From a virus: DNA of 64,000 bases. Positions 5,455 through 17,491 of this stretch are shown piece by piece; positions within the stretch are counted from its first letter, which is position 1, and every line of letters starts with the position of its first letter. The notes under the pieces were generated by a model. That model was not told where the DNA came from, searched no databases, and worked only from the letters and a program-made list of their open reading frames with translations. The position numbers and the translations under genes are program-made. Location: positions 1-64,000 of the IMG/VR virus record IMGVR_UViG_3300047368_000324; one strand, 5' to 3'.

Positions 5455-6642
5455 ATGCAAACACTAGAAAAACTATACAAAATAGACTCTAAGGGTCGGC
5501 TTAGAGAATGGACAATGCACATTAATCGTGATACATTTTTTGCGGTTAAAGGTTTAGTTGGCATGAAGCTTACAGAAGACAAACCTACATTTTGTACTGC
5601 TAAAAATATAGGTAGAAGTAATGAGACTTCTGATGAAGAGCAAACAATTTTAGAAGCAAAAGCTAAGTGGGAAAAGAAGCTTAAAGAGGGTTACGCAAAG
5701 ACTCCCGAAGATGCGGAGACTAGAGCATATTTCGATCCCATGCTTGCACAATCTTATGATGATCGCCATTTAGAAGTCGAAGAAGCATATAAGAAAGGTG
5801 TAGTTTATTGCCAACCAAAACTTGATGGGATTCGTTGTATCGTAAGGAAAGAGGGTGACGATATTATTGCTAGAACTCGTAATGGTAGAGTTATTGATGC
5901 AGTTCCGCATATTACTAAAGAATTAAGTGTTTATTTTAAAAATAACGAGAAACTTGTTCTTGATGGAGAATTATATAACCATGATTTAAAACATGATTTT
6001 AATAAAATAGTTTCATTGGTTAGAAAGCAAAAGCCAAGTAGAACTAAATCAGATACAGATAAATCTTTTCAAAAGAAATTAGATAAATTTGACAAAGCAC
6101 TAAAGGAATCGAAGTCTCTTGTTCAGTATTGGATATATGATATACCTCAAAGTAATACTTTTAAATGCAAGCACTCTTTCTCAGAGCGTTTCTTCGCTGA
6201 AGATATATATGAAAGTGATTCTATCAAATTAGTGAAAACAGGTGTTGTGTCAAGTAAAAAACATTTAGACAAATACTATTCAAAATATATTCAAAAAGGA
6301 TATGAGGGTCAAATGATTCGTATTAACAATGCCTATGAACAAGGTAAGCGTAGTGCAAAGTTGCTAAAGCGTAAAGATTTTATGGATGCGGAGTATCTTG
6401 TCACAGATATTGAAGAGGGTAATGGCAATCGTAGTGGTACGGCAAAGCATCTTGTTTGTTATTGCCCAAAAATGGATACGCATTTTAATTCAAATATCAA
6501 AGGTAGTTTTGATTATCTAGCAGAAATACTAGAAAATCGTGAGTATTACATTGGTAAATACGCAACGATTAAGTTCTTTGAATTGACTCCCGATGGTATT
6601 CCAAGGTTTCCTTATGCACTTTCTTTCAGAGATTACGAGTAA
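5455..6642 (+). CDS. ATP-dependent DNA ligase with N-terminal WGR-like domain
   Basis: Seals nicks in duplex DNA through a covalent lysyl-AMP intermediate. Residues about 1-85 match a WGR-like domain (LYKIDSKGRLREWT, then a GRSNETSDEEQ stretch) as found on other phage ligases. The catalytic domain shows motif I KLDGIR (122-127, nucleophile Lys122), motif III LDGELY (169-174), motif IV EGQMIR near 285 and motif V around LLKRKD near 303, followed by an OB-fold region. At 395 aa it is a complete small phage ligase. With UvdE and the two HhH-GPD-like proteins it forms a repair-flavoured gene group, though ligase is also needed to seal replication intermediates. Confidence 0.93.
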   Translation: MQTLEKLYKIDSKGRLREWTMHINRDTFFAVKGLVGMKLTEDKPTFCTAKNIGRSNETSDEEQTILEAKAKWEKKLKEGYAKTPEDAETRAYFDPMLAQSYDDRHLEVEEAYKKGVVYCQPKLDGIRCIVRKEGDDIIARTRNGRVIDAVPHITKELSVYFKNNEKLVLDGELYNHDLKHDFNKIVSLVRKQKPSRTKSDTDKSFQKKLDKFDKALKESKSLVQYWIYDIPQSNTFKCKHSFSERFFAEDIYESDSIKLVKTGVVSSKKHLDKYYSKYIQKGYEGQMIRINNAYEQGKRSAKLLKRKDFMDAEYLVTDIEEGNGNRSGTAKHLVCYCPKMDTHFNSNIKGSFDYLAEILENREYYIGKYATIKFFELTPDGIPRFPYALSFRDYE

Positions 6643-6658
6643 ATTAAATCATAACTAG

Positions 6659-6680
6659 CTTATAATGAGAGGGTTATAAG
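6659..6680 (+). terminator. hairpin after the ligase gene
   Basis: CTTATAA (6659-6665) pairs with TTATAAG (6674-6680) around an 8-nt loop. There is no strong T run after it, so intrinsic termination is only a possibility. Confidence 0.4.
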
Positions 6681-6697
6681 CATTTTCACAAAAAAGC

Positions 6698-6726
6698 TTG
6701 ACAAGCAAGCATTTTTCCTCAATACT
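6698..6726 (+). promoter_or_regulatory. early promoter
   Basis: TTGACA (6698-6703), 17-nt spacer, AATACT (6721-6726), 9 nt to ATG 6736. Confidence 0.65.
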
Positions 6727-6735
6727 TATTCTATC

Positions 6736-7506
6736 ATGCAAATCACACTAACAGAAAAATCAACTCAATTTGAATTAACGAATAGTTTCGATCAACTATT
6801 ATTTCCATTCAAGCAAACGCTTGAACAAGCGAAGGCAGTGCAGAAAGTAAATCAACTCAAAGAAGTTGATCGCTTTTTCAACAATCTTACTCTTCGTCTT
6901 GTCAAAGAAGGTGAAGATTATTGGGCATCGCTCATTCCAAAGAATGATGCAGAAATGTTTGGTCGTTGGGTCTTCGCAATTATGAGCGTTCACACTACTT
7001 GGGAAAGTAATGTGCGTGGATACGAAATCGCAATGAGCGATTTATCATGGACAATTTCTAAAGATGCGTTGCGTGACATGATTGTCAAAGCAAAGGTTGG
7101 TCTTTATGAGCGTAGAGAAAGAGGCTTGTGGGAATTGGCAACCAAGTTCAGAGAAAACCCCGATCAGTTCAAGAAGCAGGATGACGAGACATGGCAAGAG
7201 TGTCGCAATCGTTTGATTGGAACGATCTATGGTCTTGGTAATGCGAAGACAACTTACGCTTTATCTTTGAGCTACCCAACAGAGTCACAACTTTGTTGCT
7301 TAGATGTTCACTTGTTACGCTTCATGGGGCATGACCTCAAGAAAGGTCACGCTAGTTCGCTAGAAGCATATCAAGAAATGGAGAACGAGTGGCTTGCTCG
7401 TTGCGATAAGTACGGAGTATCGCCAAATGTTGCTAGAGAAATTTATTGGAACAAAGTTCAAGGCAGAAGAAACTCACGCTATTGGAGTTACTGCCTCGAA
7501 AAATAA
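6736..7506 (+). CDS. HhH-GPD-like base-excision repair protein
   Basis: The C-terminal half carries a helix-hairpin-helix with a GPD-like active site: GLGNAKTTYALSL with a Lys at 171 in the position of the EndoIII catalytic Lys, followed by LDVHLLRFMG with Asp190 in the place of the catalytic Asp. There are no clustered Cys, so no iron-sulphur loop. The N-terminal 110 residues are not recognised. The family comprises DNA glycosylases/AP lyases acting on damaged bases. The protein at 16916 has the same core, but the two are otherwise different. Substrate and activity are inferred only. Confidence 0.72.
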   Translation: MQITLTEKSTQFELTNSFDQLLFPFKQTLEQAKAVQKVNQLKEVDRFFNNLTLRLVKEGEDYWASLIPKNDAEMFGRWVFAIMSVHTTWESNVRGYEIAMSDLSWTISKDALRDMIVKAKVGLYERRERGLWELATKFRENPDQFKKQDDETWQECRNRLIGTIYGLGNAKTTYALSLSYPTESQLCCLDVHLLRFMGHDLKKGHASSLEAYQEMENEWLARCDKYGVSPNVAREIYWNKVQGRRNSRYWSYCLEK

Positions 7507-8974: not shown

Positions 8975-11257
8975 ATGATTATCACACAAGAAAAATCCAA
9001 ACGAGTCGTATCGTCTCACGATTTCGATTCAGTAAATTGTACCATTGATGCAGAAGATATGCGTTATGTAGCGTCTCTTCTCCGCAACAACTATTCTAAT
9101 CCACCTCTCGCAGTTGTGCGTGAAATTAGTGCTAATGGTTTAGATGCAAACCAAGAAGCGAATTCTTCTCGTCAAGTCGAGATTACAATTCCCTCTAGGT
9201 TTAATCCGCATTTTTGCGTTAGAGACTATGGTCATGGCTTGAGCAAAGAAGATGTTTTCGGTTTGTATTCCAAGTATGGAAAAAGTACAAAGCGTAATTC
9301 TAATTCTTATATCGGAGCTTTCGGTATAGGTAAGTTCGCCCCATTGTCTTATGGAAATAATTTCACCTGTGTATCTTTTCATGGTGGAGAAAAAGCTTCT
9401 TACAATGTATTTGTCAATGAAGATGATGATACCAAAATTGTAGAACTACATAGAGAACCTAGTAATGAACCAAGTGGTTTATCCGTAGAGGTTGCTATTG
9501 CAGATGAAGATATTGATAAATTTAGAGAAATTGTTAAAGCTTTCTTTCGTTTCTTCGATAAGTCAGAAATGCCAAAATTTATAGGAGTTGACAAGGATGA
9601 AAAGTTCTTTGATGATTACAATGTCGTACTTCAATCCAAGAATAAAGATTGGTTCATTATTGATGACCAACAAGATTATTGGAGAAGAAGTCACTCTCAA
9701 TGCCATGCATTTATGGGCAGAGTGCATTATCCAATAAATACAAGTTCTATTGACTTTAAAAACTATGTCGAAGAAGATTATGACTTTTCACCTCTAAAGA
9801 ATATATGTGAACAAGACAATGTTTATATTAGATTTGATATTGGTGAATTGAAATTGCATCATAGTCGTGAGTCCTTAGAATACAACAAAGCTACGCAAAA
9901 AGCTATTGTTGCAAAGTTACGCAAGATGTACGATGACATCCAAGAAATTGCCAAGGAAAAGCTTGGTGGAGCAACTTGCCTATGGGATGCGAAAGCAAAG
10001 TATGCACAGGTTATCAATGCGTTACCATATCAATTAAGAAATGTCTTTCAAAATACTTTTAAATGGAAAAATGTCCCTATCAATAGTGCAGTCTTCCATC
10101 GCCCTCATAACTATCATGAAGATATAATCATTACTGAATATACCAAAACGGATGACAAAGATGTTACTGATGGATATAAAGTAAGAAGTCAAAAGTCAAG
10201 CAGAGTCGATGTTCACATGAACAATAGGCTTATGATTCAAGACATTAAATCTCCACATGGTAATGCCTTGAGAGCTAGAACTATATTCAACAAGGATGAC
10301 TCTATTGTTGCGGTGTATTGCGTATCTTATACTGATTGTGGTAGCCAATATTTATATGGCGATGAAGATGGTTGGCAACTCAATCTTGTCTCTAAGAAAA
10401 ATATATTTTATACTAGCAATGTTGAGAAAGCTAAGTTAAAGCAAGGCACTAGATCAAGTGGTGAGTCACGCTCATCCGTTCCAACTTTCTTGTATGATCC
10501 ACAAGGATACAGAAATTCCGATCAATGGAAAAATGGTACAGAGCAAGATAAGCTTGAAGCAGAGACAGATGAAGATTCACAAAATGTATATATTTCTATT
10601 AGTAATTATAAGCCAAATGGTGATTATAGTTACTGCTTAGATAGTCTCAAGCGTGATTTCAAAGGCATGAAAGCTTTACTGAAAAACCTAGATGAGCCTA
10701 TGATTGATCTTCATGGTATTCGTAGTGCGGATGTTTCTAAGCTTGACAAGTCAAAATGGATTGAATGGAAAGATTATCGTATTCAAAAAGCAAAGTCTGC
10801 CCTACTTCGCAGAAAAGCTGATTTATTGCGTGGAGAGCGTAGGCTTGCATACCAAGAGCATCGACATGAAATGCACAATGTCAAGAGTATTGAAGGTTTA
10901 CTAGCTAATAATAGCCTAAAGAGCATTTTGAACAAAAGCCTTAACAAGAACCATGACCTTCGAGAAGCAATAAATATTCTCACAGATTCTCAAAGAGAAG
11001 AGGTTGTTTTGTCAACATTAAGTCAACTCAAGAATTTGGTGCATGATAATGACAAAGATTGGTTCAAGAAAAATTTCTCTTCTACATATAATTGGAAAAG
11101 TTTCGATTACCTTTGCAAGGAAATCATAGACAAGTACCCATTACTAATGAATATAAATTCATCAATATATGGATGGCAGAATCTTGCGGAGCAAAACTTT
11201 GGCAAGAACATTGCAGATTATATTTCTATGTGTGATAAGCTAGGGGGTGAGGCATGA
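8975..11257 (+). CDS. rIIA: rIIA-like GHKL ATPase
   Basis: Homologue of T4 rIIA, a protein involved in protecting infection from host or prophage exclusion (as T4 rII does against lambda Rex). The N-terminal Bergerat ATPase fold is clear: N-box REISANGLDAN (49-59, Glu50 and Asn54), DYGHG (84-88) and GAFGIGK (114-120). The remaining about 500 residues are less conserved with charged helical segments near 590-650. At 760 aa it is of typical length. It is followed by the rIIB homologue, the conserved T4-like order. Membrane association and exclusion phenotypes are family knowledge, not visible here. Confidence 0.9.
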   Translation: MIITQEKSKRVVSSHDFDSVNCTIDAEDMRYVASLLRNNYSNPPLAVVREISANGLDANQEANSSRQVEITIPSRFNPHFCVRDYGHGLSKEDVFGLYSKYGKSTKRNSNSYIGAFGIGKFAPLSYGNNFTCVSFHGGEKASYNVFVNEDDDTKIVELHREPSNEPSGLSVEVAIADEDIDKFREIVKAFFRFFDKSEMPKFIGVDKDEKFFDDYNVVLQSKNKDWFIIDDQQDYWRRSHSQCHAFMGRVHYPINTSSIDFKNYVEEDYDFSPLKNICEQDNVYIRFDIGELKLHHSRESLEYNKATQKAIVAKLRKMYDDIQEIAKEKLGGATCLWDAKAKYAQVINALPYQLRNVFQNTFKWKNVPINSAVFHRPHNYHEDIIITEYTKTDDKDVTDGYKVRSQKSSRVDVHMNNRLMIQDIKSPHGNALRARTIFNKDDSIVAVYCVSYTDCGSQYLYGDEDGWQLNLVSKKNIFYTSNVEKAKLKQGTRSSGESRSSVPTFLYDPQGYRNSDQWKNGTEQDKLEAETDEDSQNVYISISNYKPNGDYSYCLDSLKRDFKGMKALLKNLDEPMIDLHGIRSADVSKLDKSKWIEWKDYRIQKAKSALLRRKADLLRGERRLAYQEHRHEMHNVKSIEGLLANNSLKSILNKSLNKNHDLREAINILTDSQREEVVLSTLSQLKNLVHDNDKDWFKKNFSSTYNWKSFDYLCKEIIDKYPLLMNINSSIYGWQNLAEQNFGKNIADYISMCDKLGGEA

Positions 11258-11336: not shown

Positions 11337-12431
11337 ATGAGCGAAAAATTAGCGTACAACTTGAGCGAAGATTCCATTACTATCTTTTTTGATGGAAAAC
11401 CACACACGATCCGTAAAGATAATGCAAATTTCTCTGCATTACGATCTGCAATCTTTGAGGGGAGATATGATGATGTCCCCGAACTTCTTGACATCAAGAA
11501 GGCAGTTGAAGATTTTGTAGAGGGTGATGTTGAGGTTAGAGATGAAGTCTTATATTATAAAGGCAAACATAGATTACATGGAGTTGTCGTTGACAAACTC
11601 TTAGATATGTTGCGTAGTGGAATGAAGGATTCTACTCCAATAACTAATTACATTGGTAGATTGATGAATAATCCATCATCTAACTCTGTTGACGAACTTT
11701 ATAGCTTCCTAGGGTATAAATCTTTACCGATTTCTCCCGAAGGTAAAGTTTTAGGTTACAAGGGTGTTCAATCTGATTATTGGAGTAACACAGGCAATGC
11801 AGATACAATCGTGTTGCAAGGCGAAACCAATAGCAGACATCAAATTTACAATGGTGTTGGCGAAACTATTGAGATTCAGCGTAGAAGTTGCGATGACAAC
11901 AAAGACAACCATTGTTCTCATGGTTTGCACATCGGTTCGTATGATTATGCTAATAGTTGGGCATCTTCTGAAGGCAGATTACTTCTTGTGGAGTTTGATC
12001 CGCAAGATGCAGTCTCCGTTCCAACGGATTGTAATTTTCAAAAATTAAGGGTTTGTAAGTACAAAGTGGTTGCAGACATTACCGACTCTCGTCAAGAGCT
12101 AGATAAGGTAGTCTACGAGGCTAATAAGCCTATCTATGGTTCTGATGCTGATGATTGTTGCGAAGATGAATCTTGCGACTACGATTGCGAGGGAACGATC
12201 ACAGGCGAGTGGGACGATGAGGAAGATTTAGTTTCAAAATTAGATGTTAAAAACTTTATTGAAAATAAATTAGATAATGGCGAAGAGGTTACTCTTAAAC
12301 TTATATCTTCATTGAAGGTTTGTAGAGAAGAAGGTTGGAGAATAAGAGACATTGCCGTTATAGTTGAAGACTTGGGTTTTGATCTTCATAGTGATGCTGA
12401 AGAAATCATGTCAAATTGGAAAGTTTCATAA
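11337..12431 (+). CDS. rIIB: rIIB-like protein
   Basis: Homologue of T4 rIIB, partner of rIIA. Recognisable features are the N-terminal ITIFFDGKPHTIRKDNANF segment, the central LPISPEGKVLGYKGVQSDYW block, and the CSHGLHIGSYDYANSW motif that is typical of rIIB-like proteins. A Cys/Asp/Glu-rich linker (about 265-295, with a CC pair and further Cys) precedes a C-terminal helical domain not obviously present in T4 rIIB. Translation probably uses a Shine-Dalgarno site. The next gene begins on the last base of the stop codon (TAATG). Confidence 0.88.
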   Translation: MSEKLAYNLSEDSITIFFDGKPHTIRKDNANFSALRSAIFEGRYDDVPELLDIKKAVEDFVEGDVEVRDEVLYYKGKHRLHGVVVDKLLDMLRSGMKDSTPITNYIGRLMNNPSSNSVDELYSFLGYKSLPISPEGKVLGYKGVQSDYWSNTGNADTIVLQGETNSRHQIYNGVGETIEIQRRSCDDNKDNHCSHGLHIGSYDYANSWASSEGRLLLVEFDPQDAVSVPTDCNFQKLRVCKYKVVADITDSRQELDKVVYEANKPIYGSDADDCCEDESCDYDCEGTITGEWDDEEDLVSKLDVKNFIENKLDNGEEVTLKLISSLKVCREEGWRIRDIAVIVEDLGFDLHSDAEEIMSNWKVS

Positions 12432-13109: not shown

Positions 13110-13520
13110 ATGGGATTAGATCAACAAGCTTATAGCAAAAATTCAGAAGGAGAAGAACATGAAATCGCTTATTGGAGAAAGCACAATCGCCTTCAAGGGT
13201 GGATGGAAGAACTTTGGCAAGCCAAGGGTAGACCAAACTACGAACCGACTGATAATGGGGGTCTAGGAGACTTTAATTGCGTTAATCTTTATTTAAATGA
13301 GCAAGACCTTGATGACCTTGAGGATGCAGTTTGTGCGAAAGCGTTACCATCGTGCGGTGGATTCTTCTTTGGAGATGATTCGTTCTCTTGGGCAAACAAG
13401 CATGGAGAACATCATGAAGGTTATGATTATTTCTACAAGGAACTAGATATGGAATTCATAGAAAAAGCTAGAGATGAAATTAATAAAGGAAATAAAGTAT
13501 TCTATACTTGTTGGTGGTGA
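13110..13520 (+). CDS. conserved phage protein of unknown function, 136 aa
   Basis: Starts MGLDQQAYSK and continues with WRKHNRLQGWMEELW, a pattern I recognise from small conserved proteins of many large phages and some bacteria. These are sometimes carried under misleading names, and no function is established. Two Cys pairs are spread through the chain, and it ends FYTCWW. Confidence 0.75.
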   Translation: MGLDQQAYSKNSEGEEHEIAYWRKHNRLQGWMEELWQAKGRPNYEPTDNGGLGDFNCVNLYLNEQDLDDLEDAVCAKALPSCGGFFFGDDSFSWANKHGEHHEGYDYFYKELDMEFIEKARDEINKGNKVFYTCWW

Positions 13521-13522
13521 AT

Positions 13523-13630
13523 ATGTATTCAATAGACATAATTGATATTGTTAATAATATATTTATCGGAACAGGTTTGGCGGTACTCTTAATATTTGTT
13601 TTATTTTTAGCATTTACTTATGATGACTAA
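13523..13630 (+). CDS. 35-aa single-pass membrane peptide
   Basis: One hydrophobic segment (about 13-32, IGTGLAVLLIFVLFLAF) flanked by acidic ends, two bases after the preceding stop. The following gene begins within its last codons. Probably a small membrane protein of unknown role. Confidence 0.5.
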   Translation: MYSIDIIDIVNNIFIGTGLAVLLIFVLFLAFTYDD

Positions 13631-13832
13631 TAACAAAGAAAGAGAATTATTATTAAATATAAATAATATAGAGAACGAATTAAACATAATTGAAAAAGAA
13701 TTAGATTACATAATCGACAATGCTCCCGAAGATGGAGAGGTTGCAGAACTCTTAGAAATCGAGCGAGGTTACCTTTTGTCAGAACTTGGCATCGCCAAGG
13801 ATTCTTATATGTTACTTACTAAAGATAAATAA
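13620..13832 (+). CDS. small coiled-coil protein, 70 aa
   Basis: A heptad-like Leu/Ile/Glu pattern runs over most of residues 8-60. Start at 13620 or the adjacent ATG at 13623. Last gene before a 500-base AT-rich region. Unknown function. Confidence 0.65.
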   Translation: MMTNNKERELLLNINNIENELNIIEKELDYIIDNAPEDGEVAELLEIERGYLLSELGIAKDSYMLLTKDK

Positions 13833-13968
13833 TTACATTCTCTATACAATATATATATAAGCATAATATAAGAACAAATAACACACTTATATTATTACTT
13901 GATTTATTTTAAGTTAATGATTATTATTAATTTATATATAAACACTTGTAAATAAAGGGATTCCGTTG

Positions 13969-14003
13969 TGGGTCAAAGTGGGAGAAAGTGGGTCTGTATG
14001 GGC
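13969..14003 (+). promoter_or_regulatory. four TGGGN boxes with 5-nt spacers (MraZ-type operator)
   Basis: TGGGT (13969-13973), TGGGA (13979-13983), TGGGT (13989-13993) and TGGGC (13999-14003) are direct repeats at an exact 10-bp period, two of the spacers ending in AAAG. This is the published recognition pattern of MraZ, the regulator of the bacterial division and cell-wall (dcw) cluster: TGGGN repeats separated by 5 nt. The last box covers the -35 position of the promoter whose TATAAT is at 14021-14026. The same sequence also fits a four-tract G-quadruplex pattern with 7-nt loops. Binding by MraZ is inferred from the pattern alone. Confidence 0.72.
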
Positions 14004-14026
14004 TACGCGACTTCAATATATATAAT
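13998..14026 (+). promoter_or_regulatory. promoter overlapping the TGGGN array
   Basis: TATAAT at 14021-14026 with no -35 consensus at the 17-nt position, which is occupied by the fourth TGGGN box. A transcript starting near 14033 would have a leader of about 22 nt before ATG 14055. Confidence 0.5.
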
Positions 14027-14054
14027 AACTAATATAAATATATTCAAATAACAA

Positions 14055-14234
14055 ATGAAATTAAACAAAATAAACAAAATTCTAAATAATATAAATTCAA
14101 AATTGCTTGAAATTAAACTTAAAAATAATTTTAATAGTAAAAATATATCTAATAATTGCGAAATGAAAATTGATAATGAAAATAATTCAAATACAAAGCG
14201 AAATAAATACGGATTTCCAACTTTATTCAGATAA
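14055..14234 (+). CDS. small Lys/Asn-rich protein, 59 aa
   Basis: Unrecognised, very rich in Lys, Asn and Ile, with an amphipathic N-terminal helix and a basic C-terminus ending GFPTLFR. It is the first frame after the MraZ-type operator and its TATAAT box, so it is the candidate target of that control. No clear Shine-Dalgarno. The AT-rich composition means chance open frames are easy, hence the moderate confidence. Confidence 0.5.
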   Translation: MKLNKINKILNNINSKLLEIKLKNNFNSKNISNNCEMKIDNENNSNTKRNKYGFPTLFR

Positions 14235-14301
14235 TACTGCTCTTTTTAACATATTTTAATTGATTAATATATATTAATTGGTCGCGTTCGCAAGTTTTCG
14301 G

Positions 14302-14330
14302 TTGACAAGCAAGCGATATTGCCACATACT
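14302..14330 (+). promoter_or_regulatory. early promoter
   Basis: TTGACA (14302-14307), 17-nt spacer, CATACT (14325-14330), 8 nt to ATG 14339. Confidence 0.7.
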
Positions 14331-14338
14331 TATAACAT

Positions 14339-14569
14339 ATGAGCGAATTAACACGAAATATAAATGCTTTGCTAGATGAATATAATGATATTAAACAAGA
14401 TAAATCAATAACAGGCGATTCTATTGAAAATATAATTAGTGATATAAATAAATTAACTAATAATGGATTAAATGTTAATGATATATTCACAAATAACTAC
14501 TATGTTAACGATTATCAAGAGGATAAGCGTTGTGCGAGTGGCAAAATCTTCGGAGTAAAGCAATCATGA
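14339..14569 (+). CDS. small unknown protein, 76 aa
   Basis: Asn/Asp-rich helical protein with a basic Cys-containing C-terminus. No family recognised. It overlaps the next gene as ATGA. Confidence 0.65.
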   Translation: MSELTRNINALLDEYNDIKQDKSITGDSIENIISDINKLTNNGLNVNDIFTNNYYVNDYQEDKRCASGKIFGVKQS

Positions 14570-14769
14570 TTGAATTAGAGACAAATAAACATATAGCACC
14601 AAAGACAGGGCAATATAAACTAGAAATAATTGATAAAACAATTGATGAAATTATATTAATTTATGAAAATAAAAATATAAATGATTTAATTGAAATAATG
14701 AATGGTTTTAGTCTTAATAAATATAGTAGAAGATTAACAGGTAGTGATATGTACTTGTGGGAGACTTAA
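14566..14769 (+). CDS. small unknown protein, 67 aa
   Basis: Start 14566 is chosen for the ATGA overlap with the preceding stop; the longer frame from 14530 is unlikely. Beta-strand-rich start (GQYKLEIIDKTIDEIILIY) and a short helical end. Unknown function. Confidence 0.62.
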   Translation: MIELETNKHIAPKTGQYKLEIIDKTIDEIILIYENKNINDLIEIMNGFSLNKYSRRLTGSDMYLWET

Positions 14770-14842
14770 TATTGCATTATATATCAAGCAATAAACGAAA
14801 TTAAGATTGAATTTGAGCCAAATAACTTCAAATAAAGCTATT

Positions 14843-15875: not shown

Positions 15876-16305
15876 TTTTAAATTTTGAGCATAGATCTCG
15901 CAAGCATTAAGTTGCTAAAAGCCAATTCTTGTAAGTCTCAATTCACTTTGGAACAATGAGTCGATAGCTGAGTATCGGACATTGACTCGTTCCATTCTAT
16001 TTGGAAGGGCTTATAATCCTTCCTGTGGGTGACTCGAAATAACCTGTCGTGAGCGGGTTAAGGTATGCAGATCCCTGTGGTAGGGACGGTAGAGTCCAAT
16101 CGGATGAGCCGAATGACAAATGCCAAGTCTAGTCTGTAGTTCGAAGTAGGTAATCCATGAACTGATGTTCACGCCGAAAAGTTGAAGGTATACAGTAGTC
16201 CTTCCCCACATTTATTTTTACAGGCAAATATGCGGAGGTTGTGTGTTGCCTCTAGTGACTATCATCGCCTGTTAGGTAACTCAATAAAAGCCTAACGCTC
16301 CAAAA

Positions 16306-16372: not shown

Positions 16373-16630
16373 ATGAACACATTAAAAGACATACTATCAC
16401 ATTTCGGATACATTAACTCGGCTCAGCTCGCAGAGCTTAACGAACACTTTCCTCACATGAGGGTGGTTATTAAATGGGGCGGATTGCCTCGTGAACGAGT
16501 TCCTGTATGGCAAGCAATTGAAACCATCGAGAGAGTCGAACGAGAGAACCTTGACTATTGCAGAGAGGTATTTCTATCTGCCAAGGATTGCAACAATCTT
16601 CGTGAGGCTTTACATATAACCACTAATTAA
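16373..16630 (+). CDS. small unknown protein, 85 aa
   Basis: The start is set by the promoter; the in-frame extension to 16322 runs through the promoter and terminator. Alpha/beta composition with a central MRVVIKWGGLPRERVPVW strand-turn. No family recognised. Confidence 0.72.
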   Translation: MNTLKDILSHFGYINSAQLAELNEHFPHMRVVIKWGGLPRERVPVWQAIETIERVERENLDYCREVFLSAKDCNNLREALHITTN

Positions 16631-16915: not shown

Positions 16916-17491
16916 ATGATAAATCCAGCAGAAGTAACTAACTATAATCGAACTCAATCTGAATTACAGGAGTTTTTATTATTTTGTATTAATGTCGCAG
17001 GTAAAAAGTCTGCAGTCGAGGCTCCAAAACTAGAAGTCTTCCTCGAAAGAGCAAAAGATATCTCTGACACAGATTCTCCATTTGATGCTCTTCGTGCTCT
17101 AGAAAAAGCTGGCAGACTACAGGAGGTGCTTCATTGGGCGTCAATTAGCCCTTACAAGCAACGCTACAACAGCTACAAGGATGTTCTTGCTCTAGGAGAC
17201 CTACAAGCAGTTACTCTCGCCCGCCTGATGCAGGTGCGAGGTGTTGGACTTAAAACCGCACGATTCTTTCTATCTCACAGTCGCGAGGACTTTGATGAGC
17301 CCATGCTTGACACACATATTCTTCGCTTCCTTAGGGATCAGGGTTACAGAGACGCCCCAAAAAGTACCCCTCAAAACCAAGGAATCTACAACTATTACTC
17401 TAATGTATTTAAAATGTTTGCTCGTACACTTGGCAAATCAGTTACTGATTTGGATTTAGAAATCTGGAAGCAATACTCAAAAACAGAATAA
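16916..17491 (+). CDS. HhH-GPD / endonuclease III-like protein
   Basis: Carries the helix-hairpin-helix GPD signature: RGVGLKTARFFLS with Lys113 at the EndoIII catalytic-lysine position, then LDTHILRFLRDQG with Asp132 at the catalytic-Asp position. No Cys cluster follows, so it would be an iron-sulphur-free member. At 191 aa it is shorter than EndoIII and lacks its C-terminal loop. The family removes damaged bases and cleaves at abasic sites. It is the second such protein in the window (see 6736), with otherwise little similarity. It stands alone between a promoter and repeat element A. Confidence 0.78.
   Translation: MINPAEVTNYNRTQSELQEFLLFCINVAGKKSAVEAPKLEVFLERAKDISDTDSPFDALRALEKAGRLQEVLHWASISPYKQRYNSYKDVLALGDLQAVTLARLMQVRGVGLKTARFFLSHSREDFDEPMLDTHILRFLRDQGYRDAPKSTPQNQGIYNYYSNVFKMFARTLGKSVTDLDLEIWKQYSKTE

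Follow-up and report, generated by a model that had tools for sequence, protein, structure and literature searches.

The window analysed in this study comprises 64,000 nucleotides (positions 1 to 64,000) of the 76,615-base IMG/VR virus record IMGVR_UViG_3300047368_000324. It contains on the plus strand, at 13969–14003, an array of four MraZ-type boxes reading TGGGTCAAAG TGGGAGAAAG TGGGTCTGTA TGGGC. The boxes start at 13969 (TGGGT), 13979 (TGGGA), 13989 (TGGGT) and 13999 (TGGGC), in steps of exactly 10 bp, as the preliminary description had stated from the letters of the window. A search of the window for the three-box pattern gave two matches, which overlap, whereas 100 shuffles that preserve dinucleotides gave none, and the array occurs a single time in the whole virus record. 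At least three direct boxes of the (A/G)AAGTGG(G/T) type at a 10-bp period, the form by which an MraZ operator is recognised, are present in it. The AT-rich non-coding gap around the array extends over 222 bp (13833–14054) and not over the 500 bases first attributed to it, since a 70-aa ORF (13620–13832) immediately precedes it. A short element upstream of the array (TAAAGGGATTC, 13953–13963, plus strand) was found as a single copy in the window and is common to some of the related phages (e.g., L004 and L031).

The segment leading from the array to the putative transcription start (14004–14030, plus strand) corresponds to a conserved element, TACGCGACTTCAATATATATAATAACT, which in relatives reads TACGCGACTTAAATATATAAAAT. 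It includes a TATAAT sequence (14021–14026, plus strand), a putative −10 element for which the fourth box (13999–14003) lies over the −35 position. The first gene after the array (14055–14234, plus strand) encodes a small basic protein of 59 amino acid residues ending in KRNKYGFPTLFR, the C-terminus in the window being ...NTKRNKYGFPTLFR. No Pfam or PHROG match was obtained for this protein. Its relatives in divergent phages share a C-terminal N-[KS]-[YFWH]-GFP motif, and their genes are kept downstream of the array, which indicates that the 59-codon frame, previously proposed to begin at 14055, is a real gene and represents a new small-protein family.

The second gene of the downstream block (14339–14569, plus strand) codes for a 76-aa product of cluster c2, with homologues in nine phages of the set, and a further gene of the block (16373–16630, plus strand) codes for an 85-aa product of cluster c3. 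Upstream of the array, rIIA-like (8975–11257) and rIIB-like (11337–12431) genes were recognised on the plus strand by PHROG matches to RIIA and RIIB and by synteny. The rIIA and rIIB genes occupy this upstream position in most of the phages, and a DNA ligase-like gene is found instead in L023, L027 and L105. Clusters c9, c18, c3, c7, c4, c5, c6 and c8 are common to the rII-type and the ligase-type contexts, the 85-aa gene being downstream of the array in both. Since the upstream neighbour changes and the downstream genes are shared, the array is best assigned to the downstream block. The same block contains a manA RNA motif (RF01745, 73.6 bits) at 16003–16214, the sole Rfam match of the window. 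Two proteins encoded at 6736–7506 and 16916–17491 each matched the HhH domain of 8-oxoguanine glycosylase (PF22175), below the threshold.

Relatives of the rIIA-like protein were found to be encoded at 50 IMG/VR loci, many of which bear the array. The carriers constitute one family of phages, uncultured and for the most part marine, known from IMG/VR contigs of which many are incomplete. One array copy was present on each array-bearing contig tested, on the same strand and in the same place, ahead of the co-directional small-gene block. The window and its closest relative are identical at 15 of 16 positions of the box cores and at 16 of 23 of the spacers; across the relatives the TGG cores are invariant and the spacers drift. 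A set of 20 distinct phages was then selected by the downstream 59-aa protein alone, and box periods of 6 to 16 were compared. At period 10, three or more of the four TGG boxes were in phase in 12 of the 20 phages, as against none of the 20 at any of periods 6–9 and 11–16; when L054, L070 and L105, which had originally been retrieved by means of the array, were left out, 9 of 17 phages still carried it. In the other eight of the 20, the downstream gene is accompanied by two boxes at most, so that gain or loss of the array has taken place within the phage lineage. The refuting outcome named in the preliminary description, a loss of box spacing in relatives that keep the flanking genes, was for the most part not observed: the 10-bp phase is kept in the majority, but the downstream gene also persists where boxes are fewer or missing. 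The box spacing appears, from these counts, to be conserved under selection.

When the strict pattern RTGGGNNRAARTGGGNNRAARTGGG, which the window matches, was searched across all IMG/VR, 49 matches (25 clusters) were obtained at period 10, 25 (19 clusters) at period 9 and 23 (14 clusters) at period 11. A general enrichment of MraZ operators in viruses was therefore discarded as weak, the pattern being only about twice as frequent as the period-9 and period-11 controls, and the case rests on conservation within this phage family. Multi-box MraZ-type arrays were also seen in another group of large viral contigs, unrelated to the phage family (L071, L072, L074, L086, L089, L107, L108 and L109), several of them of about 320 kb. 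The array there precedes a gene on its own strand and is flanked on the opposite side by a divergent gene, and the boxes vary between members. In L077, L085 and L101, a three-box MraZ-type array directly follows the stop codon of a gene on the opposite strand (product MAKKKAVA...), beside a hairpin, which is not a promoter position.

The consensus of the sequence following the array in the phage family is CGACTT(A/C)AATATATA(A/T)A. When IMG/VR was scanned with the downstream 17-mer CGACTTMAATATATAWA alone, and thus independently of the array, 30 loci were retrieved, of which 14 have three or four in-phase boxes at most 60 bp upstream and 16 have none or one; no locus has two. All the intergenic matches within the phage family have the array within 60 bp upstream, and the array-less matches look like unrelated loci. 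The distance from the last TGG to the TATA sequence is 16–20 bp in 13 of 18 relatives and 28–29 bp in three with a degenerate fourth slot. No TTGACA-like hexamer is present at the −35 position of the TATAAT sequence, and a sigma-70 scan of 13500–14500 returned chance-level sites only, the TATAAT at 14021–14026 not being among them. The promoter that the preliminary description had placed here, with the fourth box at −35, thus has its elements at the positions given for them, but it is the conservation of the TATA element, and not a match to the sigma-70 consensus, that argues for it. Further CGACTTAA-type sequences, without boxes, occur downstream in L042 (about 6620–6720) and L020 (about 12400), and possibly represent other promoters of the same phage class.

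MraZ is a bacterial regulator of cell-division and cell-wall (dcw) genes and is among the most widespread bacterial transcription regulators; to our knowledge, its signal and its targets beyond the dcw cluster are poorly known. The strict pattern RTGGGNNRAARTGGGNNRAARTGGG was scanned over about 85,000 bacteria and archaea (one genome per species), and mraZ ORFs were called by an iterated profile search started from an E. coli MraZ seed that was then replaced by the matches. The pattern was found at no fewer than 119 genome loci and, among the matches listed, 109 of 119 lie directly upstream of mraZ, with the mraZ ORF on the same strand and within about 600 bp after the array. The listed loci with both pattern and mraZ span Pseudomonadota, Bacteroidota, Verrucomicrobiota, Chloroflexota, Actinomycetota and others; some of the remaining 10 listed matches are near contig ends. 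Given this association, the string appears close to diagnostic of an mraZ promoter, and the resemblance of the boxes to MraZ operators, noticed at the outset, is borne out. The published MraZ core is (AAAGTGKN3)3 (PMC5282649), and the Burkholderia cenocepacia MraZ site consists of four 7-base repeats with 3-base spacers, that is, of 10-bp steps (PMC7761207). The consensus of 64 boxes of the phage family, AAAGTGGGTN, in which TGG is invariant and preceded by G or A, equals the published core. The identification of the phage array as an MraZ-type operator is thereby strongly supported by sequence identity.

The phage array and the mraZ operator of the dcw cluster share the box AAAGTGGGN, the 10-bp period, the number of three to four boxes and the orientation to the controlled genes. 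They differ in that the phage array has no attached mraZ or dcw genes and is followed by small phage genes instead. The phage array precedes the putative −10, whereas the MraZ sites of Burkholderia and E. coli follow the −10 element (PMC7761207), so that the phage geometry differs from the best-studied cases. In mraZ promoters of the Bacteroidota type (e.g., single-cell genomes AG-453-G13 and AG-891-J21), the array is likewise upstream of an AT-rich −7/−10 element. The last box is there 13–15 bp before a TAnnTTTG sequence, a spacing close to the 16–20 bp to the TATA in the phages, so that the two layouts are similar; the phage element, however, reads CGACTTAAATATATAAAAT and lacks TAnnTTTG.

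No MraZ (PF02381) was detected in the 19 records of the phage family or in 35 other array-bearing viral records, in a search in which the positive controls were detected. Many of these phages encode a protein of about 98 residues with an AbrB fold (PF04014), a fold of the broad class to which MraZ also belongs, and this protein would be the candidate if the array were the site of a phage-encoded regulator that reads an MraZ-like sequence, by chance or through evolution. PF04014 matches were obtained in 7 of 12 array-bearing records and in 12 of 23 further relatives. In several of them the AbrB-like gene lies about 11–15 kb upstream of the array, and the contig of the window may begin just past that position. 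However, the protein was found in about 8 of 19 array-bearing records as against 11 of 16 records in which no array was found, and since it is as frequent or more so without the array, it is not coupled to it. It is also missing from all the array-bearing records of the ligase-type clade (some of which are fragments), and its DNA-binding stretch, NGELFFTIPDEML, is not the MraZ motif. A phage-encoded reader of the array is accordingly an unlikely explanation, and the lack of a phage MraZ, together with the uncoupled AbrB-fold protein, leaves host MraZ as the most likely ligand. Copies of this small AbrB-fold protein, whose N-terminal domain is AbrB/MazE-like, are encoded at L345 (1441–1737), at L346 (1450–1740) and in relatives, with and without the array.

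Concerning the host, the phage genes lack a Shine-Dalgarno signal. This absence is expected for Bacteroidota, and it hints at a host from this phylum. MraZ is present in 109 of 118 sampled Bacteroidota genomes. However, TAnnTTTG promoters were not enriched in the phage, and when 396 genomes of one Bacteroidota order were searched for rIIA relatives, only distant rIIA-type matches were obtained. The DNA of 13300–14800 showed no similarity to isolated phages, among which the terminase, rIIA and DNA polymerase retrieved distant relatives only.

We consider, with a probability of about 0.62, that the locus is a genuine MraZ-type operator that overlies the upstream portion of a phage promoter, through which host MraZ controls the downstream small-gene block. 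In an infected host possessing MraZ, the MraZ ring would contact all four boxes from the same side of the helix, over the −35 region. The bound protein would then gate the TATA-element promoter of the block, whose first gene is that of the 59-aa GFP-motif protein. Repression would be the most likely outcome, occlusion being the simplest reading, and activation is also allowed by an array upstream of the −10. Phage promoters can carry sites for host regulators such as LexA and CRP, and the arrangement proposed here resembles those cases in that the site of a host factor lies in a phage promoter and the state of the host can gate phage genes. The preliminary description knew of no account of an MraZ operator as a phage control site and, likewise, no description of MraZ as a phage control factor was found in the literature searched, which lay mostly outside subscription journals.

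The preliminary description had left the choice between gating of the promoter and a decoy. As a decoy, the array would titrate host MraZ as phage copies rise and thereby change how the host's cluster of division and cell-wall genes is expressed; the site is the same as the host operator, and one intact array per genome would amount to many copies during replication. A decoy, however, needs neither a fixed distance to the TATA nor a fixed place before the same gene block, and the boxes have not been multiplied beyond four. The association of the array with the downstream operon and its fixed distance to the TATA favour gating over a pure decoy; titration would be compatible with gating but is not required, and as the whole function it is rather improbable. 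An iteron-type replication origin, in which a phage initiator binds direct repeats adjoining an AT-rich unwinding region, would likewise account for four direct repeats of helical period next to an AT-rich gap, one set per genome. The GC skew shows no switch at 14 kb, though, and the repeats equal bacterial MraZ operators rather than known iterons and have the orientation and spacing of a promoter element, which makes an origin very improbable.

The array of the window also has the four GGG tracts of a G-quadruplex, as had been pointed out before. Most relatives replace GGG by GGT or GGA with the TGG phase retained, so a conserved G-quadruplex was ruled against, and that suggestion was dropped. 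Single-strand folding of the array was no better than that of shuffles (z 0.63), no Rfam match was obtained at the array, and the array would not be transcribed from the TATA if this is the −10. A structure formed by the DNA or the RNA is thus scarcely credible. The same low standing is given to a functionless tandem repeat arisen by chance: three-box strings at off-periods do occur elsewhere in IMG/VR, but chance is contradicted by the invariant in-phase cores at one locus of divergent phages.

Returning to the operator read by host MraZ, the chances appear about even that the phage lineage uses host MraZ as a sensor, the MraZ-operator promoter timing the small-gene block to the state of host division and wall synthesis, or that it also titrates MraZ and relieves host control. 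The array, together with the CGACTT-TATA element and the GFP-motif protein, provides a marker for this uncultured phage group. A selected MraZ operator in phages, if confirmed, would testify independently that MraZ activity informs on the state of the cell. The array suggests that these viruses couple the expression of some of their genes to the host division regulator, which, if true, would establish a direct link between the timing of phage genes and the control of host division.
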